45,410 nt of DNA. It comes from a bacterium (lineage in GTDB: Bacteria > Planctomycetota > Planctomycetia > Pirellulales > UBA1268). Shown piece by piece: positions 11,487 through 42,511 of this stretch. The position numbers and the translations under genes are program-made. The number at the start of each line of letters is the position of its first letter. Positions within the stretch are counted from its first letter, which is position 1. Location of the stretch: the NCBI GenBank assembly GCA_029978085.1, contig JAPOJV010000009.1, positions 1-45,410 of the forward strand. Reading direction: 5' to 3'. Below the pieces are notes generated by a model. That model saw only the letters and a list, made by a program, of their open reading frames with translations. It was not told the DNA's origin and did no database searches.

Positions 11487-11619
11487 GTCACGCCGTGACA
11501 GTCCGTCCGGCGTGGTCCTGTCACGCCGTGACAGTTCGTCCGGCGTGGTCCTGTCACGCCGTGACAGTTCGTCCGGTCACGGCGTGACCGGGCTACTTTT
11601 CGGGAGTGACCGGGCTACC
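11487..11619 (+). repeat. Family-1 palindromic repeat, cluster A (2.7 tandem 33-mers plus terminal unit)
   Basis: The core TCACGCCGTGA occurs at 11488, 11521 and 11554, exactly 33 bases apart. A terminal TCACGGCGTGA follows at 11577, 23 bases later, and then CCGGGCTAC and a partial TGACCGGGCTACC at 11607. Copies two and three are flanked by CTG/CAG, so the palindrome extends beyond the core. The terminal copy is flanked by CCGG/CCGG. The cluster fills the gap between divergent ilvB and mfd. Confidence 0.9.
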
Positions 11620-24600: not shown

Positions 24601-24701
24601 TGTGGGCACGTCACGCCGTGACTTGCGTTCCGGTGTGGGCAAGTCACGCCGTGACTTGCGTTCCGGTCACGGCGTGACCGGGCTACCGTGACCGGGCTAC
24701 C
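24601..24701 (+). repeat. Family-1 palindromic repeat, cluster B
   Basis: Two 33-base units start at 24601 and 24634 (TGTGGGCAmGTCACGCC...). Cores TCACGCCGTGA lie at 24611 and 24644, and the terminal TCACGGCGTGA is at 24667 (23 bases on), followed by two GACCGGGCTACC tails. The second core is flanked by GCAAG/CTTGC, a perfect extension. The cluster lies between divergent hemY and the TPR gene. Confidence 0.9.
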
Positions 24702-29059: not shown

Positions 29060-32000
29060 CTACCCTGCGCGGCCGAGGGCGGCGACGGCGGCGTGGTCGG
29101 CCGATGTGAGCCGACGGCCGGTGGCGCGGGCGAGGGCAAGGCGACACCAGACATCGGCCGCTGCAGCCGCGGCATCGGTGCCACGGGCGTCGGCGTGATG
29201 CGCCGTCGCCAGCACGCTCACGAGCTCGCGCACGTCCGCCGCCAGGCCGCCAATCTCCAGCTGGCGGTCGGCCAGACCGCGGCCATGGCGGCGGATCGCG
29301 CGGTCGATGCTCGCGGCGGCATTCGCGAGGCCGCGCCGTGCCTGGCGGGCATGTTCACGAAGCCGGCGGTCGAGCAGCCCCGCGTCGCCGCGCGAGCCCG
29401 CCGCGAACCGGGCGGCCCGCCAGGCCAGCCAGTCGCCTGCCCGAGCGAGCCGCGCTGCGTCGCGGGCCTGCTGGGCGAGCGGATGGTGCTTGGCGAGTCC
29501 CTTGAAGAGGGCCAGGCCGAGCAGGTCGCTCTCCCCTTCGTAGACCGTGACGGCGAAGTGATCGTGGAGCGAATCGCCGAGCGGATGGCCGACGAGAAAG
29601 GCGCGGCCGCCGTGCACGCCGAGCGCGTCGATCGCCGCCTCGCGGACACACGTGCTCGCCACCACCTTCGCCGTGATCGCCTCGAGCTCACCCGTCTGGC
29701 CGGCGTCGATCGCGGCCGCGGCCCAGCCGGCCAGCGCATCGCAGGCGACGATCGATGCGGCGATCCGCCCGAGTCGCCCCTGCACGAGCTCACGGGCGGC
29801 GATCGGCTGGCCCCAGGTGGTGCGCCGCAACGCGTGGTCACGCGCCTGCGCGAGGAGCAGTCGCAGCGTGCCGGCGGCCTGCGCCGCCAGCGTGATGCGG
29901 CCACGGTTGAGTCCGTGCCAGACGATCTGCATCCCGTCGCGGCCCGGCGGCGGGGCGAGCAGATCGGCCTCGTCCACCTCGAAGCCAGTGAACTCGAGCG
30001 CGGCGTTGGCCGCATGCTTGAGCGGATGGATCGCGTAGTGCCGCAGCCGGAAGCCGGGCGTGTCGTGGTCGGGCAGTCGCACGAGCACGACGGCCGGCTT
30101 GCCCTCGTGCATCGCGAGCAGCTTGACGAGCCGGCCATGCACCGCATTGGTGATGAACATCTTCGTGCCGGTGAGCAGGAGTCGCCCGTCGCGCCGCTCG
30201 AGCACCGACTGCACCGCACCGAGATCGCAGCCCACCTCCGGCTCCGTGCCGCCGAAGATCGAGAGCGGCCGCCCCGCGGCGAGACCGGGCAGATGGCGAG
30301 CCTGCTGCTCCGCCGAACCGAAGGCCGTAACGGCCGAGACGACGCCGATCGACGAGTGCACCGCGAGCATGCCCGCGGCGGTCGGGCAGTCGGCGGCGAC
30401 GCGGGTGATCCCGCGGGCCAGCTGGCCCAGCGTGGCTTCCACACCGCCATGCAGACGGGGCACGAACAGTCCCCACAGGCCCGCCTCCCCGAGCGCGGCC
30501 TCGGCGGCTGCGGTGAAGCGGCCGGTCGGCGCCGGCGGCGCATCGGCGAGCGGTGCGGCCGGCGCGGCGGCTGGCAGCGTTTCGTAGAGCCGACCTGCAG
30601 CCCGCAGTGCGGCGAGCTCGAGGGCGGTGCGATCGAGCACGGCCTCGACCGCATCCGGGAGCGGGTCCGCTGCTGACTCCGCCGCCTCGGCGAACCCACC
30701 GGCAGTGCCATGCCATGTCGCGGCCGTGAGCCACGAGTGCCGTGACGCCATCCCTATCTCCTCGATGGTTCCTCTGGCCCGCGGTCCGGCCGGCACGACG
30801 CCCACACCGCGGGGCTCCGCCCGCGCGGCCGCCCGGATCTGACTCTGAAAGTGGCTCGCGATCGCCCGCCTCTTGAGCTTGAACGACTCGGTCGTCTCGC
30901 CGTGGGCCGCATCGAACGCGCGGCCGACGAGTATCCCTCGCCGCACCTGCCAGGCCCGCGGAAGCGCCGCCTGCCGCTGGGCCAGCCGCCGGGCGATCCA
31001 GACGAGCAGCCGCGGATGCGCCAGCGCCTGTCGCCGGCTGAAGACCCGCAGGCCGAGCCGGCGGATCGCCGCGCGGATCACGTCGGGCTCCGGCACGACG
31101 AGGGCCACGGGCCAGGGCAGGCCGTCTCCCACGACGCACACCTGCGCCACGGCCTCGTCCTCGGCGAGCGTCCGCTCGATCTCGGCCGGCGGCAGCTTGA
31201 CGCCGGTCGAGAGCACGATCGTGTCGGAGAGCCGGCCCGTGATCCGCAGGTGGCCGGCCGCGTCGATCTCGGCCACGTCGCCGGTTTCGAGCCAGTCGGG
31301 ATCGACGTCCGCCCGCGTGTCACATGAGTCAGGCGGATGCATGAGCCCCACGGCGCGACTGGGCGTGCGGACGAGGAGCTGGCCGCGGGACTCGGGCCGC
31401 TCGTCGATCCGCACCTCCACGCCATCCAGCGGCGGCCCCACCGTGCCCGGCCGCGCGATCCGCGGATTCGACACGGCCACCACGGGCCCCGCCTCGGCGA
31501 GTCCGTAGCCCTGCACGAGCGGGACGCCACGCGCCGCGAAGAATTCCGCCGTGCGGTCGCGCAGCGGTGCGCCGCCGGAGATGCAGACCCGCACGCGGCC
31601 GCCGAGCGCGGTGGCGAGGTCGGCGATCCGCCCCGCTCGTGCCCCGCGCTCGAGCCGCTCGAAGAAGGCGGGCACGCCGAGGATCACGGCCGGCGGCAGG
31701 GCGGCGCAGGCGTCGAGCAGCCGCATGCGATCGCGGACCACGTTGAGGCAGCCGCCGCGGACGAGTGCCGTGTAGAGATCGCCCACGCGGGCGTAGGCAT
31801 GGCTCATCGGCAGCCACGACAGCCGCACGTCCTGCGGGTCGTGCAGAAACATCTCGCTCGATGCCCGGGCATTCACGGCCAAGGATCGCTGCGAATGCAG
31901 GACACCGTGGGGCAGGCCGGTGGTGCCTGACGAGAGCAGGATCGTGCAACAGGCGCCGGGGTCGCAGGCGGCGACGCGGTCGGCAAGCGCAGCGGCGAGG

Positions 32001-32482
32001 CGGACGGGGTCGGCGGCAAGCCCGCGCCAGGCGGTCGCGGCAAGCACGCCCGCGCCGAGATCGAGGAGCGGGAGTTCGCGTGACGAAGCCTGTGGTGGCC
32101 GGCCGCTGCAGACGAGGGCCTGCGGGGCGAGCCAGTCGAGGAGCCGCTGCTGCTCTCGACGTGGCAGGTCGTCGTGCACCGCCACGTGGATGACGCCCGC
32201 GAGCAGACAGGCGAGATCGACGACGATCCAGTCGGGCGTGTGCGGCCCCGCATGGGCCACGCGATCGCCACGGCGGACGCCCTGAGCCTCGAACCGCTCG
32301 GCAAGCGTGACGGCCGCGGCGGCGATCTCGCCCCACGTCCACGACTGCGTGGGCTCGAGGCCGTCGACGACGGCGGGCCGCTCGCGAGCGTCGGCCACCC
32401 GCGCGGCAAGGAGCGCGACGAGCGAATCGCAGGCGGCGGGGCGTTCGACGGTCGGCTCAGGCTGGGCGAGCACGGGCTGCAT
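29060..32482 (-). CDS. Acyl-CoA synthetase fused to acyl-CoA dehydrogenase, 1140 aa
   Basis: One open frame encodes two beta-oxidation enzymes. Residues about 20-560 are an AMP-forming acyl-CoA synthetase: P-loop-like TILLSSGTTGLPHG (about 180-195; His replaces the usual Lys), QGYGLAEAG (Ala replaces Thr), WLETGDVAEID, ITGRLSDTIV and the C-terminal lysine region ESFKLKRR. Residues about 620-1140 are an acyl-CoA dehydrogenase: FGGTEPEVGCDLGAVQS, LTGTKMFITNA, GRITLAAQAAGTLRLLLAQARDHALRRTTWGQPI, and the catalytic Glu in VYEGESDLLGLALFKG near 981. Together they would activate a free fatty acid and introduce the first double bond. An embedded ribosome site and ATG at 30751 could make the dehydrogenase separately. 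Fusion by frameshift, natural or from assembly, cannot be excluded. Confidence 0.85.
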   Translation of the reverse strand: MQPVLAQPEPTVERPAACDSLVALLAARVADARERPAVVDGLEPTQSWTWGEIAAAAVTLAERFEAQGVRRGDRVAHAGPHTPDWIVVDLACLLAGVIHVAVHDDLPRREQQRLLDWLAPQALVCSGRPPQASSRELPLLDLGAGVLAATAWRGLAADPVRLAAALADRVAACDPGACCTILLSSGTTGLPHGVLHSQRSLAVNARASSEMFLHDPQDVRLSWLPMSHAYARVGDLYTALVRGGCLNVVRDRMRLLDACAALPPAVILGVPAFFERLERGARAGRIADLATALGGRVRVCISGGAPLRDRTAEFFAARGVPLVQGYGLAEAGPVVAVSNPRIARPGTVGPPLDGVEVRIDERPESRGQLLVRTPSRAVGLMHPPDSCDTRADVDPDWLETGDVAEIDAAGHLRITGRLSDTIVLSTGVKLPPAEIERTLAEDEAVAQVCVVGDGLPWPVALVVPEPDVIRAAIRRLGLRVFSRRQALAHPRLLVWIARRLAQRQAALPRAWQVRRGILVGRAFDAAHGETTESFKLKRRAIASHFQSQIRAAARAEPRGVGVVPAGPRARGTIEEIGMASRHSWLTAATWHGTAGGFAEAAESAADPLPDAVEAVLDRTALELAALRAAGRLYETLPAAAPAAPLADAPPAPTGRFTAAAEAALGEAGLWGLFVPRLHGGVEATLGQLARGITRVAADCPTAAGMLAVHSSIGVVSAVTAFGSAEQQARHLPGLAAGRPLSIFGGTEPEVGCDLGAVQSVLERRDGRLLLTGTKMFITNAVHGRLVKLLAMHEGKPAVVLVRLPDHDTPGFRLRHYAIHPLKHAANAALEFTGFEVDEADLLAPPPGRDGMQIVWHGLNRGRITLAAQAAGTLRLLLAQARDHALRRTTWGQPIAARELVQGRLGRIAASIVACDALAGWAAAAIDAGQTGELEAITAKVVASTCVREAAIDALGVHGGRAFLVGHPLGDSLHDHFAVTVYEGESDLLGLALFKGLAKHHPLAQQARDAARLARAGDWLAWRAARFAAGSRGDAGLLDRRLREHARQARRGLANAAASIDRAIRRHGRGLADRQLEIGGLAADVRELVSVLATAHHADARGTDAAAAAADVWCRLALARATGRRLTSADHAAVAALGRAG
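30749..30762 (-). promoter_or_regulatory. Internal ribosome-binding site and start codon inside the ACS-ACAD gene
   Basis: On the minus strand GAGGAG-ATAGGG-ATG places a strong Shine-Dalgarno six bases before an in-frame ATG (30751-30749), exactly at the domain boundary. Initiation there gives a 563-residue dehydrogenase, a normal free-standing size. A TAG in another frame (30756-30754) directly precedes it, as expected if two genes were once separate. Confidence 0.6.
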
Positions 32483-32527: not shown

Positions 32528-32622
32528 GTGGGTATGTCACGCCGTGACATATCCTTTCCGGTCACGGCGTGACCGGGCTACCGCGGGCAAGTCACGGCGT
32601 GACCGGGCTACCGCGGGCCTAC
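32528..32622 (+). repeat. Family-1 palindromic repeat, cluster C
   Basis: The core TCACGCCGTGA at 32537 is flanked by TATG/CATA, a pairing variant not seen in other clusters. Terminal-type TCACGGCGTGA copies follow at 32562 (25 bases) and 32592 (30 bases), each with CCGGGCTACC. The closing GGCCTACGG contains the pfk stop codon (TAG, read on the minus strand at 32621-32619). Confidence 0.88.
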
Positions 32623-33941
32623 GGGCCGAACGTGCGCGGCTGGCCCGTGGCCTCGAGCACCGCCAGCCACAGGTCGCCGTCCGGCGCCACCTCGTTGCGA
32701 TGGCTCACCGTGAGCGGCATCGGGATGTGGACGAACCGGCCATGCCAGCGGCCCACCACGCACTCCGTGCGGCCGGCCATCGCGGCATGCACCGCGTTCT
32801 GCGCGAGCCGCAGGCAGTAGACGCTGTCGTAGGCATTCGACGCCACGCTGCGGATGAGATAACTGGGGTCGATGTATTTCAGGTTCACTTCCGTGTTCGC
32901 GGCGGCGAAATGCTCCGCGATTCGCTGCCGCAGGAAGAGGCCGACGTCGTCGAGCCGCCGGTTGCCCGACGCATCCCGGGCATCGCCTCCCGTGCCGCAG
33001 AGATGCTGACCGGCCCCTTCGGCCACCACGATCACGGCGTGGCCCCGGGTGCGAACGCGGTCGAGCAGATGGGCGAGGAAGCCGCCCGGTCCATCGAGGG
33101 CGAACGGCACCTCGGGAATGAGCACGTAGTTGGCATCGGGCTCCGCCAGCGAAGCGTAGCAGGCGATGAAACCAGAATGGCGGCCCATCAGCCTCACGAG
33201 GCCCACGCCGTTGGGCGCCGCCTTGGCCTCGACGTGGGCCGCACGGATCGAGGCCGTGGCCTCGGCGAAGGCCGTCTGGAAGCCGAAGCTCTGGTCGATG
33301 TAGGGGATGTCGTTGTCGATCGTCTTGGGCACGCCGACGACCGCGATCTTCAGTCCCCGCTCCTCGATGATGCGGGCGATCTGCATCGCGCCGCGGAGCG
33401 TGCCGTCACCACCGATGACGAACAGCACGGAGATGTGCATCCGCTCCAGGCAGTCGACGATCTCGCCCGGATCCTGGGCGCCGCGCGAGGTGCCGAGGAT
33501 CGTGCCGCCGAGCTCGTCGATGTCGCTCACGACGTCCGGCGTGAACTCGACCACGTCGTGGCCATACTTCGGGATGAAGCCCTGGTAGCCGTTGCGGAAG
33601 CCGACGATCCGCTGCACCTCGTAATGAAACGAGAGCTCCATCACGATGCCGCGAATCACGTCGTTGATGCCGGGACAGAGGCCGCCGCAGGTGACGATGC
33701 CCACGCGGGTCTTCGCCGGCTCGAAGAAGATCTTCCGCCGCGGGCCGGCGGGCTCGAAGCCGGGCAGCTCATCGAGCGACACGCCTGCCTCGCGGATGAG
33801 CGTGGTGGTGTCGTGGAAGAGCACGCGGTCTTCCTCGGCGACGTAGTGGGCAGTCGTGCGGCGGGTCGCCACGTGCTCCTGGAGAGGCGACGCGATGCGG
33901 CATTCGCCCAGCGTCTTCACGGCCAGATCGGCGGCGTTCAT
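32619..33941 (-). CDS. pfkA: 6-phosphofructokinase, plant/trypanosome-type (probably ATP-dependent), 440 aa
   Basis: Phosphorylates fructose 6-phosphate in glycolysis. The phosphofructokinase core is clear: TCGGLCPGINDVIRG, GFRNGYQGF, GTILGTSRG, FVIGGDGTLRGA, GVPKTIDNDI, and VRLMGRHSGFIA. The residue after GGD is Gly (as in ATP users), while PKTIDND has the Lys typical of PPi enzymes. That combination marks the group-II 'X' clade found in plants and trypanosomatids, whose characterised members use ATP (established knowledge; phosphoryl donor here is inference). An N-terminal extension of about 75 residues precedes the core. The ATG at 33941 is used because upstream in-frame codons run into repeat cluster D. 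Its stop lies in cluster C. Confidence 0.88.
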   Translation of the reverse strand: MNAADLAVKTLGECRIASPLQEHVATRRTTAHYVAEEDRVLFHDTTTLIREAGVSLDELPGFEPAGPRRKIFFEPAKTRVGIVTCGGLCPGINDVIRGIVMELSFHYEVQRIVGFRNGYQGFIPKYGHDVVEFTPDVVSDIDELGGTILGTSRGAQDPGEIVDCLERMHISVLFVIGGDGTLRGAMQIARIIEERGLKIAVVGVPKTIDNDIPYIDQSFGFQTAFAEATASIRAAHVEAKAAPNGVGLVRLMGRHSGFIACYASLAEPDANYVLIPEVPFALDGPGGFLAHLLDRVRTRGHAVIVVAEGAGQHLCGTGGDARDASGNRRLDDVGLFLRQRIAEHFAAANTEVNLKYIDPSYLIRSVASNAYDSVYCLRLAQNAVHAAMAGRTECVVGRWHGRFVHIPMPLTVSHRNEVAPDGDLWLAVLEATGQPRTFGP

Positions 33942-34020
33942 GGGCGAGTGTCCGAGGCGGGCGGGGCGGACAGGCGAGGGCAGAAGTGTAGCACGGCGTG
34001 CAAGGAGGCCCGTCTCTCCG

Positions 34021-34112
34021 CGTGGGCGAGTCACGCCGTGACTCGCTTTCCGGTCACGGCGTGACCGGGCTACCGTGACCGGGCTACCGTGACCGGGCTA
34101 CCGTGGGCCTAC
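34021..34112 (+). repeat. Family-1 palindromic repeat, cluster D
   Basis: The core at 34031 is flanked by GCGAG/CTCGC (perfect pairing). The terminal core follows at 34054, 23 bases on, and then three tandem copies of TGACCGGGCTACCG ending in TGGGCCTAC. It lies between divergent pfk and the secreted gene at 34259. The whole gap (33942-34258) otherwise holds only leader sequence and a possible -10 (TAGACT, 34211). Confidence 0.88.
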
Positions 34113-34258
34113 TGCCACAAGTGGTGCGACGGCAAGTGGTTAGGGCCCCCGGCATGCGCAGCCGGCGTGCCGCTCGGCAGTTGGCATGGAGTCGCGGCCG
34201 TTCCCGCCGGTAGACTCCGCGGGCGTTTTCGGCCCTGCTGTCCTCGAGGCGACCCCTG

Positions 34259-36220
34259 ATGCATGCATGTTTCCGCAGTCTCGTTTCCTCCGCTCGCCTG
34301 ACCGGACGGGCCTCCATCCTGGCAGCGATCACGGTCGCGGCCGTCGCGGCACCAGTCGCCGCCCAGCTGCCGGCTGACCGGCTCGTGCAACTCGCCGACG
34401 ATGCGACGAACGCGGCCCAGACATTCCAGCCCCCCTCTGCCACCGCCCTCGATGCCGCCGCCGGCAATCTGCGTCAGGCACTCCAGCCGCTCGACACTCT
34501 CCTCGCCCGCAGCAAGAGCGGCGCCGACTGGCGGGAGTATCTCGACTGGCCCACGCTCCAGGCTCAGGCGGCTTCTGGCGCCGCCGCCGATCCCGCCGCG
34601 CTGCGGAAGCTCGTCGATCTGTTGAGCGCCACCGAGACCGGCCTCGACATGCCCGACTTCGTGCGGGTGCGGAAGGCGGCCAACCGCTACGCGGAGGCTG
34701 CCGATGCCGCCCGGGGCGCGGGTGCCGACCGGTTCGCCCAACGACTCCAGACGCTTTCGACCGCGCTTCGCAAGGCGGCCGAGACCGGCTCCGCCGACGA
34801 CCTCGCCACCGTGGCCCCGACGCTCGAGCGGCTCGCCATGGCCGAGCAGGCTCCGGGCCTCGTGCACTCCGTGCGGTCGAGCTTCAACCGGCCCAACATG
34901 CTGTTCGCCGTGCATGAGAACCTGTTCGCCGAGGCGGTGAACCGGCCGGTGGATCAGGTGGTGTCGATCAACGAGAACGTGCTCGGCACGCGCGTTCGCG
35001 GCACGGGCCACACCACGGGCATGGTCCGGCTCGACTTCGTGCCGGCCCACGACCGGGCCGTGTTCGATCTCGTGCTGGCCGCGCGGGCTTTCTCCACCAC
35101 CCGCGGCTCGCAGGGGCCCGTGACGGTGTGCACGCAGGGCACGACCGATCTGATGGCCCGCCGCAGGATCTTCCTCACGGAGCATTCCGTCTCGGCGTCC
35201 CCGGTCGAGGCCTCCGCCGACACGCACACCGACGTGACGGGGATCGGGGTCAACAAGAACTTCGGCAAGAAGCTGATCCGGCGGATCGCAACGAAGAAGA
35301 TCGCCGAGACGAAGCCGAAGGCGGAGGCGATCGCCGAGGGGCGGGCCCGCGACCGGCTGCGGCAGCAGTTCTCGGAGCAGACGGAGCCGGCGCTCGCCCA
35401 GTTCCGCGATCAGTTCCAGTCGCGGGTGCGCGGACCGCTCGAGGCCCGTGGCCTCTATCCCGAGATGCTGCACCTCAACACCACCGACTCCGAGCTGGTG
35501 GTGACGGCCCGCAAGTCCCTCGCCAACCAGCTCTCGGCCGCGAGTCTCCCGCCGACGCTCGGCTCGCACAACCTGCTGACGGCGCGGGTGCACGAGTCGG
35601 CCGTGAACAACGTGCTCGAGCAGAAGTTCAGCGGGCGGATTCTCCGCCAGGCCGACGTCGACGCGCTGGCGAAGGAGATGAAGGGGAGCATGCCCGAGTC
35701 GCTCGGCAGCGATCCCGACCAGCCGCCATGGGAGGTGACGTTCGCCAAGCAGCGGCCGATCAGCATCTCGACGGCCGATGGCCGCGTGAAGCTGATGGTT
35801 CGCGGCGACAAGTTCGTGTCGGGCGACCGCGAGTTCCCGGGCATGGACATCTGGGCCACCTACGCCATCGGCCACGCGCCGCAGGGGATCATGCTCGTCC
35901 GCGAGGGGGACGTGCAGATCTATCCACCCGGGTTCGTGCCCGGCGGCGGTGAGAAGCTCAGCCCGGCCGAGACGTCGCTGCGGCGGATTCTCCAGCGGCG
36001 GTTCGACAAGCTCTTCAAGTCGGAGATCGAGATCCCCGACCTGCCGCTTCAGGGTGAACTCGCCGCCGCCGGTCCGCTGCCGCTCAACGAGCTCGTGGCC
36101 CGTCGGGACGGCTGGATCGCCGCCGGCTGGCGAAAGAAGGACCCGGTCGTACACGAGACGATCATCGGCGAAACGGTGATCGGGGAGACGGTGGTTCGCG
36201 AGGCATCGTTCGTGCGGTAA
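34259..36220 (+). CDS. Large secreted protein of unknown function, 653 aa
   Basis: The signal peptide is ARLTGRASILAAITVAAVAAPVAAQ (cleavage near residue 35). The first third is helical with Ala-rich amphipathic segments. Around residues 215-330 there is a beta-rich part (MLFAVHENLFAEAVNRPVDQVVSINENVLGTRVRGTG, then MVRLDFVPAHDRAVFDLVLAARAFSTT). A basic helix-rich region (FGKKLIRRIATKKIAETKPKAEAIAEGRA) and a final beta domain follow (PWEVTFAKQRPISISTADGRVKLMVRGDKF). The C-terminus carries a short tandem repeat, IIGETVIGETVV. I do not recognise a family. There is no lipobox, PEP-CTERM or zinc motif. It is flanked by repeat clusters D and E and seems to be transcribed alone. Confidence 0.65.
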   Translation: MHACFRSLVSSARLTGRASILAAITVAAVAAPVAAQLPADRLVQLADDATNAAQTFQPPSATALDAAAGNLRQALQPLDTLLARSKSGADWREYLDWPTLQAQAASGAAADPAALRKLVDLLSATETGLDMPDFVRVRKAANRYAEAADAARGAGADRFAQRLQTLSTALRKAAETGSADDLATVAPTLERLAMAEQAPGLVHSVRSSFNRPNMLFAVHENLFAEAVNRPVDQVVSINENVLGTRVRGTGHTTGMVRLDFVPAHDRAVFDLVLAARAFSTTRGSQGPVTVCTQGTTDLMARRRIFLTEHSVSASPVEASADTHTDVTGIGVNKNFGKKLIRRIATKKIAETKPKAEAIAEGRARDRLRQQFSEQTEPALAQFRDQFQSRVRGPLEARGLYPEMLHLNTTDSELVVTARKSLANQLSAASLPPTLGSHNLLTARVHESAVNNVLEQKFSGRILRQADVDALAKEMKGSMPESLGSDPDQPPWEVTFAKQRPISISTADGRVKLMVRGDKFVSGDREFPGMDIWATYAIGHAPQGIMLVREGDVQIYPPGFVPGGGEKLSPAETSLRRILQRRFDKLFKSEIEIPDLPLQGELAAAGPLPLNELVARRDGWIAAGWRKKDPVVHETIIGETVIGETVVREASFVR

Positions 36221-36241: not shown

Positions 36242-36311
36242 GCGTGGGCAAGTCACGCCGTGACTTGCATTCCGGTCACGGCGTGACCGGGCTACCGTCA
36301 CCGGCCTACGG
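36242..36311 (+). repeat. Family-1 palindromic repeat, cluster E
   Basis: The core at 36253 is flanked by GCAAG/CTTGC, with the terminal core at 36276 (23 bases). The closing GGCCTACGG holds the thiolase stop codon (TAG on the minus strand, 36308-36306). The leader CCGCAGGTGCGT (36221-36232) also occurs at 9551. Confidence 0.88.
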
Positions 36312-37493
36312 CCGCTCGACCAGGATCGCGATGCCTTGCCCGAGGCCGATGCACATCGTGGCCAGACCGTAACGACCGCCGGAGTCGCGGAGCGAGTGAA
36401 GGAGCGTCGTGGCCAGCCGGGCGCCGCTCGCGCCGAGCGGATGGCCGATCGCAATCGCTCCGCCACGAACATTGACCCGCGCGGGATCGAGGCCCAGTTC
36501 GTCGATGCAGTGGATCGCCTGGGCGGCGAAGGCCTCGCTCAGTTCGACGAAGTCGATGTCGGCGAGCGTGATGCCGAGTCGGGCCACTCTCGCCAGCAGC
36601 TTCCGCGTGGCCGCGATCGGACCCGTGCCCATCACGGCCGGCGGCACGCCCGTCACCGCCGTCGCCACGATGCGGGCCAACGGCTCGAGCCCCTGCCGGG
36701 CCGCCTCGGCCTCCGACATCAGAAGCACGGCCGCCGCGCCGTCGCTCACCGGTGCGCTCGTGGCCGCGGTCACCGTGCCGAGCTTCGGCAGGAACACCGG
36801 CTCGAGCGCAGCCATCGCCTCCAGGCTCGTGTCGCGACGGATCGACTGATCGGCCACCGCCTCGATCACACCGCCCGCCTCATCATGACCCAGCACCCGC
36901 ACGATCTCGTCGTCGAAGAGGCCGGCATCGGCCGCCCGCACGGCCTTCGCGTGGCTCTCCAGGGCAAACTCTTCCTGCCGCCGGCGCGAGATGCCGTGGG
37001 TCGCGGCGAGGTGCTCCGCCGTGAGTCCCATCGAGAGCATGCCGCGGCTGGTGCGGGCCAGCACGCGGGGATGAATGTCGACCGCCGACTCCATCGGCAG
37101 GTGCTGCATGTGCTCCACGCCGCCGGCCACCTGCACGTTCTCGGCGCCGGCCGCGATCGCGTGGGCGGCGCGGGCGATCGCCTCGAGTGACGAGCCGCAG
37201 AGGCGGTTGATCGTCGCACCGGCCGTCGCCAGTGGCAGGCCCGCCATCAGCGCCGCGCACCGCGCCACGTTGCCCCCGAGTTCGCCCCGCTGCTGCGTGG
37301 CGCCGAGGATCACGTCTTCGACCGTGGCCGGATCGACGCCGCTCCGCTCGACCACGCCCTGCACCACGGCGGTGGCGAGTTCGTCGCCGCGAACGTGTCG
37401 AAACAGACCGCGGTCGGCGTGCGACCGGCCGATCGCGGTGCGGCAGCAGGCGATGACGACCGGCGTGGTGGCGGGATCGCGAAGCGATGGCAT
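36306..37493 (-). CDS. fadA: Acetyl-CoA C-acyltransferase (beta-oxidation thiolase), 395 aa
   Basis: Cleaves 3-ketoacyl-CoA to acetyl-CoA and a shortened acyl-CoA. The nucleophile is Cys99 in INRLCGSSLEAI. The other catalytic residues are in GGAIAIGHPLGASG (His near 347) and TMCIGLGQGIAI (second Cys near 380). SDGAAAVLLMSE and the NEAF-like ELSEAFAAQ loop are intact, with Ser where NEAF has Asn. Length is normal. The ATG at 37493 lies 22 bases after the stop of the multifunctional gene, so the two form a fadB/J-fadA operon. Biosynthetic acetoacetyl-CoA thiolase is the main alternative, but the operon favours degradation. Confidence 0.9.
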   Translation of the reverse strand: MPSLRDPATTPVVIACCRTAIGRSHADRGLFRHVRGDELATAVVQGVVERSGVDPATVEDVILGATQQRGELGGNVARCAALMAGLPLATAGATINRLCGSSLEAIARAAHAIAAGAENVQVAGGVEHMQHLPMESAVDIHPRVLARTSRGMLSMGLTAEHLAATHGISRRRQEEFALESHAKAVRAADAGLFDDEIVRVLGHDEAGGVIEAVADQSIRRDTSLEAMAALEPVFLPKLGTVTAATSAPVSDGAAAVLLMSEAEAARQGLEPLARIVATAVTGVPPAVMGTGPIAATRKLLARVARLGITLADIDFVELSEAFAAQAIHCIDELGLDPARVNVRGGAIAIGHPLGASGARLATTLLHSLRDSGGRYGLATMCIGLGQGIAILVERP

Positions 37494-37515
37494 GCGGGAG
37501 AGTCTCGCGTGGGGG

Positions 37516-39684
37516 TCAGGCCGTGAACCGGCCACCGGTGCGGGCGAGCGCCATGAGCCGCTCCGTGGGAATCATGCGTGGACCGAGATCGGCCAGCGGC
37601 TCCAGCCGCCGCAGCACCTCTGAGGGACCGAGCGTGTCGGCCCAGGCGAGCAGGCCGCCGCGAAACGGCGGAAACCCGAGGGCATGGATCACGGCCAGGT
37701 CGATGTCGGCAGGATCCCGCACGATCCCTTCGTCGACCGCCCGCACCGCCTCCAGGAGCATCGGGAGGAGGAGGCGATCGGCGATGGTGCGATCGGTCGT
37801 TTCCCGCGGGGCCACGGCGTAGCGGTCGAGCACCCTGCGGCCCTCGGGATCGACGCCGATGATCCGGGCCTTCTGATCGGCGCCCGAGTAGCGATAGAAG
37901 CCCGAGCCCGTCTTGCGGCCCAGCCGCCCCGACTTCACCAGCGCGGGGATCAGCGGTGAGGCCTCGATTCGATCGCCGTAGGCGGCGCTGAGCACGAGGC
38001 CGGCGTAGAAGGCGGTGTCGAGGCCGATCATGTCGTAGAGCTCGATCGGCCCCATCGGCATGCCGAAGCCCCGGGCCACGCGATCGATCCGCGCGGGATC
38101 GATTCCCTCCCGCACGAGTTCCGTCGCCTCGTGGAGATAGGGCATCAGCACGCGGTTGACGAGGAAGCCGGGGCTGTCGCGGACCACGATCGGGCACTTG
38201 CCGAGCCGCTTCGCCAGCGCCACGGCCGTCGCTACCGTGGCATCGCTCGTGGCCGGCCCACGGACCACCTCCACGAGCGTCATGCGGCGGACGGGGTTGA
38301 AGAAGTGGATGCCGCAGAAGCGGGTCGGGTCGGTGACGGCCTCGGCCAGCCGCGTGATCGGGTTGGTCGAGGTGTTGGTGGCGATCACCGTGTCGGGCCC
38401 GACCGCCCGTTCGATGTCGGCGAGCACGGCGGTCTTGACGTCGGGCCGCTCCGTCACGCTCTCGATGACGAGATCGGCGCCGGCGATCGCCGCCAGCTGC
38501 GTGGCCGTGCGGAGCCCGCCGGCCAGCGCGAGCGCCCGCGCCGGGTCGGTGCGTTTCGTGGCCCGATCCCAGGCCGCCTCGTCGAGGATGCCCGGCACGC
38601 TCGCGGCGAGCGTCTGGGCGTTGACATCGACGAGCGTCACCGGCACGTCGGCCCGCAGATGGCTCGCCGCGATGCCGGCGCCCATGATGCCCGCCCCCAC
38701 GACCGCCGCGGTTTGCACCTCCGCCGGCGTCACGTCGCCCGCCACGCCGGAATCGTGGCGATTCCGCTCGCCGATCCGAAACACGCGCACGAGCTGCGCC
38801 GACACCGGCGTGGCCGCGAGCTTCGCGAAGGCCTGCGACTCGATTGCGCCGGCGGCAGCCGCATCGACGTCGCTGCCGGCCAGGATCGTCTGCAGGATGG
38901 CGGGGGGCGCGGGATAGTGGCCGCCGGTGCGGCCCAGGATCACCGCCGCGGTCGTCGCTTCCAGAAATGCCCGCTCCTGCGGGTCGAGCGCGACGGGCTC
39001 CACCTGCCGCCGGCGGCGGGCGGCGATGCCGCCAGTGGTGGTCTCCACATCGATCAGCTGACGGGCAGTTTCGAGAGCCTGTTCACTGGGCACACAGGCG
39101 TCGACGAGGCCGAGCCGTGCTGCGGCTTCCGCCGTGACGCTCTCCCCGGCCGCGGCGAGTTCGATGGCCGGCCCGGGGCCGATCAGTCGCGGCAGCCGCA
39201 CCGTGCCCCCCCAGCCCGGCAGCAGGCCGAGCTTCACCTCGGGAAATCCGAGGCTCGTGTGGGAAGCCGTCGTCGCCACTCGGAGGTCGCAGGCCAGCGC
39301 CAGTTCCAGGCCTCCCCCGAGACAGACGCCGTCGATCACCGCCACGCTCGGCCAGGGGGCCGCCGAGAGCCGGGCGAAGAGGCTCCGGCCGGCGTCGCAC
39401 AGCCGGGCGATTTCCGCCGCCGGCAGATCACGGAGGGCGTCGAGGCGGGAGACGTCGGCGCCGGCGAAAAACGACCCCTCGCGGCCCGACCGCAGCACGA
39501 GGCCCCGGGGGATCAGCCGCCCGGACGACCGTTCGAGGTCGTCGAGGGCTGCGGCCAGGTCGGCCAGAAATCGGGGCGTGATCACGTTGTGCCGGTGATC
39601 CGGCACGGTGAACGTGAACACGACGAGGCCGTCGGAATGCCGTTCGACCGCGAGCGTGGCGGGATCGCGGACGGATGCCGGCAT
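37516..39684 (-). CDS. fadJ: Multifunctional enoyl-CoA hydratase / 3-hydroxyacyl-CoA dehydrogenase (FadB/FadJ-like), 722 aa
   Basis: The N-terminal crotonase domain has the oxyanion region SFFAGADVSRL, then GVCLGGGLELALACDLRVA and FPEVKLGLLPGWGGTVRL, which supply the two catalytic glutamates. The C-terminal dehydrogenase has the NAD motif AAVVGAGIMGAGIA, ESVTERPDVK, TNTSTNPIT and the catalytic His in GIHFFNPVRRMTLVEVV. The second helical domain is also complete (SPGFLVNRVLMPYL, FGMPMGPIELYDMIGLD, GFYRY). It performs hydration and oxidation in beta-oxidation and probably complexes with the adjacent thiolase. The ATG at 39684 begins MPASVRDPATLAVERH. It diverges from the DUF6580-like gene. The FadB versus FadJ choice is not resolvable from sequence alone. 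Confidence 0.9.
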   Translation of the reverse strand: MPASVRDPATLAVERHSDGLVVFTFTVPDHRHNVITPRFLADLAAALDDLERSSGRLIPRGLVLRSGREGSFFAGADVSRLDALRDLPAAEIARLCDAGRSLFARLSAAPWPSVAVIDGVCLGGGLELALACDLRVATTASHTSLGFPEVKLGLLPGWGGTVRLPRLIGPGPAIELAAAGESVTAEAAARLGLVDACVPSEQALETARQLIDVETTTGGIAARRRRQVEPVALDPQERAFLEATTAAVILGRTGGHYPAPPAILQTILAGSDVDAAAAGAIESQAFAKLAATPVSAQLVRVFRIGERNRHDSGVAGDVTPAEVQTAAVVGAGIMGAGIAASHLRADVPVTLVDVNAQTLAASVPGILDEAAWDRATKRTDPARALALAGGLRTATQLAAIAGADLVIESVTERPDVKTAVLADIERAVGPDTVIATNTSTNPITRLAEAVTDPTRFCGIHFFNPVRRMTLVEVVRGPATSDATVATAVALAKRLGKCPIVVRDSPGFLVNRVLMPYLHEATELVREGIDPARIDRVARGFGMPMGPIELYDMIGLDTAFYAGLVLSAAYGDRIEASPLIPALVKSGRLGRKTGSGFYRYSGADQKARIIGVDPEGRRVLDRYAVAPRETTDRTIADRLLLPMLLEAVRAVDEGIVRDPADIDLAVIHALGFPPFRGGLLAWADTLGPSEVLRRLEPLADLGPRMIPTERLMALARTGGRFTA

Positions 39685-39709
39685 GGCGAGGAGCTTTCGA
39701 CGGTTTCGC

Positions 39710-39737
39710 TTGCTCTGAGCGGGAAAACGGCTAGTGT
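39710..39737 (+). promoter_or_regulatory. Putative promoter of the DUF6580-like gene, overlapping a divergent -10
   Basis: TTGCTC (39710-39715), 16 bases, TAGTGT (39732-39737). Read on the other strand, TACACT (39738-39733) could serve as the -10 of the fadJ-fadA operon, so the two promoters would overlap. Confidence 0.4.
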
Positions 39738-39827
39738 ATCGGCTGTCGCGGAGAGCCCCAGAGGGGGTCCGCACGTCCCTGCGCCCGGTGCCAGGGCAGC
39801 CCACGCGCACGGAGGACGACCCCGCCC

Positions 39828-40511
39828 ATGTCCCACCCCACCGCCCCGCACGCCCGCGTTCACGGTTCCGCTGCCGGCAGCGACGCGGTTCTCGGCTCGC
39901 TGCGGAGCACTCCCGCTGCACTGGCGATCGTCTGGCTGGCGCTCGTCGCCCTCGGCGTGGCCGGCCGGCTCTGTCAGCCCACCTGGCACGTGACGCCGAT
40001 GGCGGCCGTAGCGTTGGCAGCCGGCGCCGTGTTTCCCAATCCGCTGGTGGCCGCGACGGTGCCGCTCGCCTCGCTCGTGGTAAGCAACTTCGGCCTGGAT
40101 GCGTACGAGAGCCTGCCGATGGCGGCCGTCGTGTTTGCGGCGACCGCGTGGCCGGTGCTGCTCGGCGGCCTGCTGCGGCGGATGGCGACAGGAAGCCGGG
40201 CTGCGGCGGTGATGGCCCTGCTCGCCGGGGCGCTCGCCAGTTCGCTCGTGTTTTTCCTGGCCACGAACCTCGCCTTCTGGTGGTTCACGGCTGAGTATCC
40301 GCACACGACTGAAGGGTTGCTGGCCTGCTTCGCGGCAGCACTCCCCTTTTACCGTTGGATGCCGGTGGGCGATGTGGCCTGGACCGCGGCCACGTTTGCG
40401 GGACTGGCTGCTCTGGCTCGGGCGGTCGATGTGGTCGCGTCGCGGCGGCTCCAGCCGCTGCCCGCAGCCGCACAAACGACGCCGGCCAAGCCCGCCAGCG
40501 ACGTGGCTTGA
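39828..40511 (+). CDS. Integral membrane protein, DUF6580-like, 227 aa
   Basis: After a soluble N-terminus of about 25 residues, five to six hydrophobic helices follow: ALAIVWLALVALGVAGRL, MAAVALAAGAVFPNPLVAATVPLASLVVS, LPMAAVVFAATAWPVLLGGLL, AAVMALLAGALASSLVFFLATNLAFWWF and a final VAWTAATFAGLAALARAV. The pattern THVTPMAAVALAAGA, then LVVSNF, then FFLATNLAFWWF and YPHTTEGLLACFAAALPF fits the DUF6580 family of small integral membrane proteins, which resembles ECF-transporter S components. The assignment is from memory of the pattern. Function unknown. It ends at TGA 40509-40511, which overlaps the TTGACT of the tRNA promoter. Confidence 0.6.
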   Translation: MSHPTAPHARVHGSAAGSDAVLGSLRSTPAALAIVWLALVALGVAGRLCQPTWHVTPMAAVALAAGAVFPNPLVAATVPLASLVVSNFGLDAYESLPMAAVVFAATAWPVLLGGLLRRMATGSRAAAVMALLAGALASSLVFFLATNLAFWWFTAEYPHTTEGLLACFAAALPFYRWMPVGDVAWTAATFAGLAALARAVDVVASRRLQPLPAAAQTTPAKPASDVA

Positions 40512-42383: not shown

Positions 42384-42511
42384 CCCGGTCACAGTAGCCC
42401 GGTCACGCCGTGACCGGAACACAAGTCACAGCGTGACTTGCCCACACCGGAACACAAGTCACAGCGTGACTTGCCCACACCGGAACACAAGTCACGGAGT
42501 GACGGGCCTAC
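42381..42511 (-). repeat. Family-1 palindromic repeat, cluster F (reverse orientation, 33-base period)
   Basis: Read on the minus strand, three units carry cores at 42502-42492, 42469-42459 and 42436-42426 (33 and 33 bases). The terminal TCACGGCGTGA is at 42413-42403 (23 bases) and two CGGGCTAC tails follow. The two inner cores are TCACGCTGTGA, keeping pairing as G-T. The tail's TAG on the plus strand is the stop codon of the S1 gene. It is the only cluster in this orientation. Confidence 0.9.

Follow-up and report, generated by a model that had tools for sequence, protein, structure and literature searches.

The 45,410-nucleotide (nt) stretch of DNA analysed here, hereafter the window (assembly GCA_029978085.1, contig JAPOJV010000009.1, positions 1-45,410 of the forward strand), belongs to a bacterium placed by GTDB in Planctomycetota; Planctomycetia; Pirellulales; UBA1268. 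Its minus strand carries, at 29060-32482, a single open reading frame (ORF) of 1140 amino acids (aa) in which an acyl-CoA synthetase (ACS) is followed, across a variable linker, by an acyl-CoA dehydrogenase (ACAD) of the very-long-chain (VLCAD) type. Probably, this is a two-enzyme protein of beta-oxidation that arose from a single, old fusion of two neighbouring operon genes, with the separate FadJ and FadA proteins completing the cycle. The assignment draws on the ORF and its translation, on Pfam matches and on orthologues that read through in one frame in 60 genomes of the same family (labelled f1 in the comparisons below).

The frame contains no internal stop and holds Pfam domains of both enzymes, which bears out the original prediction that one frame covers the two. 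The synthetase half comprises the AMP-binding N-domain (PF00501, 215.7 bits; residues 27-376, 31355-32404) and the C-terminal lid domain (AMP-binding_C_3, PF23562; residues 420-552, 30827-31225), the latter region also matching PF13193 above cut-off and carrying the A10 lysine, Lys535, at 30880-30878. The N, middle and C domains of the dehydrogenase (PF02771, PF02770 and PF00441, all above cut-off) occupy residues 654-737, 743-831 and 849-988, respectively (29519-30523 overall), with the catalytic Glu982 at 29539-29537. Beyond them lies a C-terminal extension (residues 996-1139, 29066-29497) of the type found in VLCAD and ACAD9. All these features lie on the minus strand, as does the inter-enzyme linker (approximately residues 553-589, 30716-30826). 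GC content at third codon positions falls from 0.92 in the ACS C-domain to 0.82 in the linker and is 0.76-0.89 in the ACAD half; judged by codon-position GC, the reading frame is unbroken across the junction. The linker evolves almost free of constraint: its identity to relatives has a median of 25%, against 62-80% for the main catalytic domains, the ACS domains being conserved to about the same degree as the ACAD N domain.

The fusion is widespread within the family. The f1 sample consisted of metagenome assemblies of planctomycetes; most carry isolate names of a lake type, and two are labelled Kuenenia. The query was matched in all of the 60 nearest genomes, and within f1 the two halves share one frame in nearly all. 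The original prediction had considered that relatives might all have two genes, and that the frame might result from a small recent indel or from an artefact. Instead, one open frame crosses the junction in 60 f1 genomes from 12 genera (a few further f1 loci, truncated by contig ends, come on top of this count), and the fused orthologues, which vary greatly in linker length and sequence, range down to about 50% identity. In searches of 296 genomes from the order and 392 from the phylum, both halves were found in one frame nowhere outside f1. As for other phyla, a scan made only with patterns of this protein, and no profile search, returned just planctomycete-type loci, two of them labelled Kuenenia. 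No report of a FadD-FadE fusion was found in the open-access literature. A second, independent fusion seemed to be present in genus g40, where apparent open frames span 1264-1329 aa; this candidate was dismissed on reading the DNA, in which stop codons separate the two genes.

Elsewhere in the order, the families that were read encode ACS and ACAD as separate genes, each with a stop of its own. The usual order of the unfused operon is fadJ-fadA-ACS-ACAD, with fadJ and fadA preceding the ACS gene in most loci and ACS-ACAD spacers that range from -4 nt (an ATGA overlap, in locus L125, with a similar overlap in L036) up to about 500 nt elsewhere. In most f1 loci, fadA lies upstream, no more than about 20 nt separating its end from the start of the fusion. 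In a quick tree, a branch with full support (SH-aLRT 100) divides the fused ACADs from the others. Since they form one such clade, a single old fusion of the operon pair is the simplest explanation: in the ancestral planctomycete operon fadJ-fadA-ACS-ACAD, the boundary of the last two genes would have been lost once, before f1 diversified. The separate ACADs start with an N-terminal segment of about 55 aa (SFAETALKLGGKS...) that is not seen in the fused proteins, suggesting that loss of the old ACAD N-terminus accompanied or preceded the fusion. A locus of family f20 (L037, genome G055) combines a separate ACS having a degenerate P-loop, TSGTIGTPIG, with an ACAD devoid of the SFAETAL N-terminus. 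It could represent a halfway form, although its branch is long and its placement unsure.

The synthetase half departs from the canonical active site at two positions that the original prediction had singled out for attention, and both changes turned out to be shared by nearly the whole fused clade. At the P-loop (A3) position, the window's protein has His192 (31907-31909, within SSGTTGLPHG) in place of lysine. The fused relatives have His in 26 cases, Arg in 20 and Lys in 11 (n=57), so that lysine is replaced in 46 of 57. At the A5 motif (GYGLAE), Ala329 (31496-31498) takes the place of threonine, as alanine does in 56 of 58 fused relatives. Among 19 separate ACSs, 18 keep the P-loop lysine (SGTTGxxKG), while 17 have Thr and two have Ser as the A5 residue. 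According to published data (PMC6122825), the P-loop lysine is 97% conserved and its mutation hinders activity; the A5 threonine, 78% conserved, binds the alpha-phosphate of AMP, and its replacement by alanine in 4-chlorobenzoate-CoA ligase causes a 100-fold loss of kcat/Km. The A5 change in the fusion probably results in slower adenylation or in an altered acyl pocket. Other residues of the site are kept in the fused copies, namely Glu330 (58/58), Asp402 (57/58), Arg417 (58/58) and Lys535 (59/60), equivalent by motif order to the Mg-binding, ribose-binding, hinge and A10 positions, respectively. As these residues are retained in nearly all copies, the fused ACS domain is, on the evidence of its conservation pattern, under constraint yet chemically altered; the fused clade would have a slowed or re-tuned ligase. 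With the P-loop lysine absent from the window's protein and replaced by His or Arg in most relatives, the domain is best described as one that works like an ACS with an altered site, rather than as a canonical FadD.

In the dehydrogenase half, the catalytic glutamate lies in a YEG motif that aligns with the YEG of solved ACADs and is kept in 60 of 60 sequences. In phmmer searches, residues 663-1120 of the fusion align with human VLCAD and residues 664-1081 with ACAD9. In an AlphaFold2 model built with 48 family sequences (mean predicted local distance difference test score, pLDDT, 83.5; predicted template modelling score, pTM, 0.80), helices are modelled at residues 1011-1139. By homology, then, the ACAD half is of the VLCAD type with a helical C-terminal extension. 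The top PDB matches of the model in Foldseek are CoA ligases. Values of pLDDT fall below 50 at residues 567-580, a stretch containing Met578 and modelled as a flexible tether between two folded enzymes, and are also low near the catalytic glutamate (962-974 and 977-983), so the model should not be used to judge how the two active sites are placed relative to each other. Nor does the model, with its floppy linker, offer proof of a substrate tunnel. Direct channelling of acyl-CoA from ACS to ACAD is plausible nonetheless. In the proposed pathway, the fused ACS would activate a fatty acid with ATP and CoA, the tethered VLCAD-type ACAD would introduce the first double bond, and FadJ and FadA would complete the cycle. 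We infer that both halves are active, that they act on a long-chain fatty acid, and that fusion serves to hold the halves close and in a 1:1 ratio.

A number of observations weigh against this interpretation, some bearing on the fusion and others on its activity. In three f1 genomes (G031, G063 and G089), the frame shifts at the junction or close to it. Since fused loci occur in other genomes of the genera concerned, a genuine indel and an assembly error cannot be told apart in these cases. Such frame changes, along with the draft status of the f1 assemblies, are what could be invoked in favour of an error in sequencing or assembly, or of the very recent loss of a stop through an indel. The occurrence of a single frame in 60 genomes of 12 genera, in spite of varied linkers, and the grouping of the fused proteins in one clade refute this explanation for the fusion itself and make it vanishingly improbable. 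Two other f1 genomes, G068 and G074, have ACS and ACAD only as separate genes, which are of the other type. Although these genomes represent different genera, their ACADs (L100 and L105) are sisters of one another, which suggests that the separate copies lie on contaminant contigs or were acquired by transfer, though these genomes may also be truly unfused members of the family. On the side of function, two residues of the nucleotide site, the P-loop lysine and the A5 threonine, are changed in nearly all fused copies, and the published losses for changes at these positions imply that the fused ACS may be weak. Moreover, the closest relative, L002 (genome G010; 86% identical), has Gln for the A10 lysine (TESFQLKRR); adenylation may have been lost in this protein, or a base may be miscalled.

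Then there is the question of the electron acceptor. VLCAD hands electrons to the electron-transferring flavoprotein (ETF). A search for ETF (PF01012) gave no match in the window's genome, nor in any of 72 f1 genomes, of which 34 have a completeness of 90% or more and contamination of 5% or less. In the rest of the order, PF01012 is also absent from 16 of 23 genomes searched; in two genomes, G037 and G056, an ETF match lies just downstream of the separate ACAD gene. In the window's genome (97.7% complete) the fusion is the single match to PF00441. One match is also the rule among the 72 f1 genomes, an ACAD being present in 70. Having a sole ACAD per genome is not special to the fused family, as it is also seen in several relatives whose ACS and ACAD genes are separate.

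The site changes could also mean that the ACS half has no ordinary ligase function and acts as a scaffold or binding module, the CoA esters being supplied by another ligase. The replacement of the P-loop lysine in 46 of 57 fused copies and of the A5 threonine in 56-57 of 58, with the activity losses on record for both (PMC6122825), fits this alternative, as does the degenerate P-loop of the separate ACS of G055. Yet the residues for Mg and ribose binding, the hinge Arg and the A10 Lys are essentially invariant, conservation of the ACS domains is roughly on a par with that of the ACAD N domain, and the window's genome yielded no other clear FadD save an ACS-like protein on contig C73. Loss of ligase function is, on balance, quite unlikely. 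The other PF00501 proteins of this genome include two acetate-CoA ligases, a fatty acyl-AMP ligase (FAAL), an Aas-like protein and the C73 protein, a list that makes the fusion the likeliest FadD of the pathway. The C73 protein (L053) is encoded by an ACS-like ORF whose C-terminal part resembles, by eye, a cyclic-nucleotide-binding domain.

A second product might be made from the same gene. The linker contains a Shine-Dalgarno (SD)-like GAGGAG (30763-30758, minus strand), a spacer ATAGGG and an in-frame ATG (30751-30749, Met578), from which a free dehydrogenase of 563 aa could be translated; a TAG in another frame sits at 30756-30754. These elements agree with the original prediction of an internal start, except that the range given there, 30762-30749, is off by one base at its 5′ end. 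Regular, selected initiation at Met578, yielding free ACAD beside the fusion, would account for several findings. Of nine internal in-frame ATGs in the ORF, only Met578 is preceded by an SD-like motif. L002 retains AGGAG-6-ATG even though its linker DNA is just 74% identical. Along the alignment, the combination of ATG and SD peaks in the 570-600 window, with 11 of 60 sequences, the runner-up 30-residue window having 7. When codons were shuffled within positions 560-590, all 60 sequences gave 13 cases observed against 4.1 expected. After thinning to 40 sequences below 80% identity, 7 were observed against about 2.6 expected, and only 5 of 1000 shuffles (2 of 1000 with the ATG places fixed) scored as high.

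On the other hand, an SD-backed ATG is present at the junction in only 15 of the 60 fused relatives (7 of 40 after thinning, with 2.5-3 expected), being missing from most relatives and from whole genera. Over-representation also weakens once the window is widened: with 8 or 7 cases observed in the thinned set against 3-4.6 expected, 12-59 of 1000 shuffles score as high. In a linker that evolves almost freely, a leftover or chance SD-ATG comes cheap. Preservation of an ancestral ACAD start at Met578 is not favoured either, as the fused clade lacks the N-terminal segment where the separate ACADs begin. Taken together, these points make a selected dual-product gene unlikely. Judging from its distribution, the internal start seems not to be a trait of the f1 family as a whole; free ACAD may be made from Met578 in the window's species and its nearest relative, as a lineage feature. 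A more elaborate scheme, in which the fusion is an entry enzyme of beta-oxidation with a slow, altered adenylation site, direct hand-over to the tethered ACAD, a non-ETF acceptor and a lineage-specific internal start that tunes the proportion of fused to free ACAD, is a long shot. The preferred interpretation stays with a two-enzyme protein from one old fusion, and within it the active-site substitutions and the missing ETF hold more interest than the internal start.

The other genes of the pathway map further upstream on the minus strand. They specify the thiolase FadA (36306-37535; PF00108/PF02803), which directly precedes the fusion in most relatives, and a FadJ/FadB-type hydratase/3-hydroxyacyl-CoA dehydrogenase (37516-39921; PF00378/PF02737/PF00725, with matches to the NCBIfam FadB/FadJ models). 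In the window, fadA and the fusion are separated by a segment (32619-36220) containing a phosphofructokinase gene on the minus strand and, on the plus strand, a 653-aa gene without Pfam match. In most relatives fadA abuts the fusion, and here repeat clusters are found at all three borders of this region (32536-32603, 34030-34065 and 36252-36287), so the segment seems to be an interruption of the operon specific to this lineage. The repeat is a near-palindromic 13-mer, GTCACGSCGTGAC, which also clusters at 11487-11588, 24610-24678 and 42402-42503. The window has 18 sites at up to one mismatch, compared to 0.14 expected, with several clusters at gene ends. The 3.3-Mb genome has 550 exact sites, whereas the reversed control gave 0.

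This locus provides a clear example of an operon pair turning into one protein, with separate genes, an ATGA overlap and the fusion all represented within one order. The fusion goes together with coordinated adenylation-site changes, and the question arises of how fatty acids are oxidised when a genome has a single ACAD and ETF is not detectable. The nearest known counterparts are the separate genes for FadD-like ACS and VLCAD-type ACAD in other families of the order, which resemble the fusion in enzymes, gene order and neighbours, at about 35-45% identity. They differ in comprising two genes spaced -4 to about 500 nt apart, in the roughly 55-aa SFAETALKLGGKS... segment of the ACAD, and in an ACS with the canonical P-loop lysine and mostly threonine in the A5 motif. 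Human VLCAD and ACAD9 are long ACADs with a helical C-terminal extension like that of the fusion; they have no synthetase domain, and the ETF that accepts the electrons of VLCAD was not found in the f1 genomes searched. FadB/FadJ, present in the same cluster, likewise places two successive beta-oxidation steps in one chain, but it joins steps 2 and 3, whereas the fusion joins activation and step 1. Finally, an adenylating fatty-acid enzyme is fused to the next component, as here, in didomains of FAAL and acyl carrier protein and in multidomain polyketide synthases and nonribosomal peptide synthetases (reviewed in PMC11837247); FAAL systems use an acyl carrier protein, whereas Pfam finds no carrier domain in the fusion, which couples its synthetase to a dehydrogenase instead.

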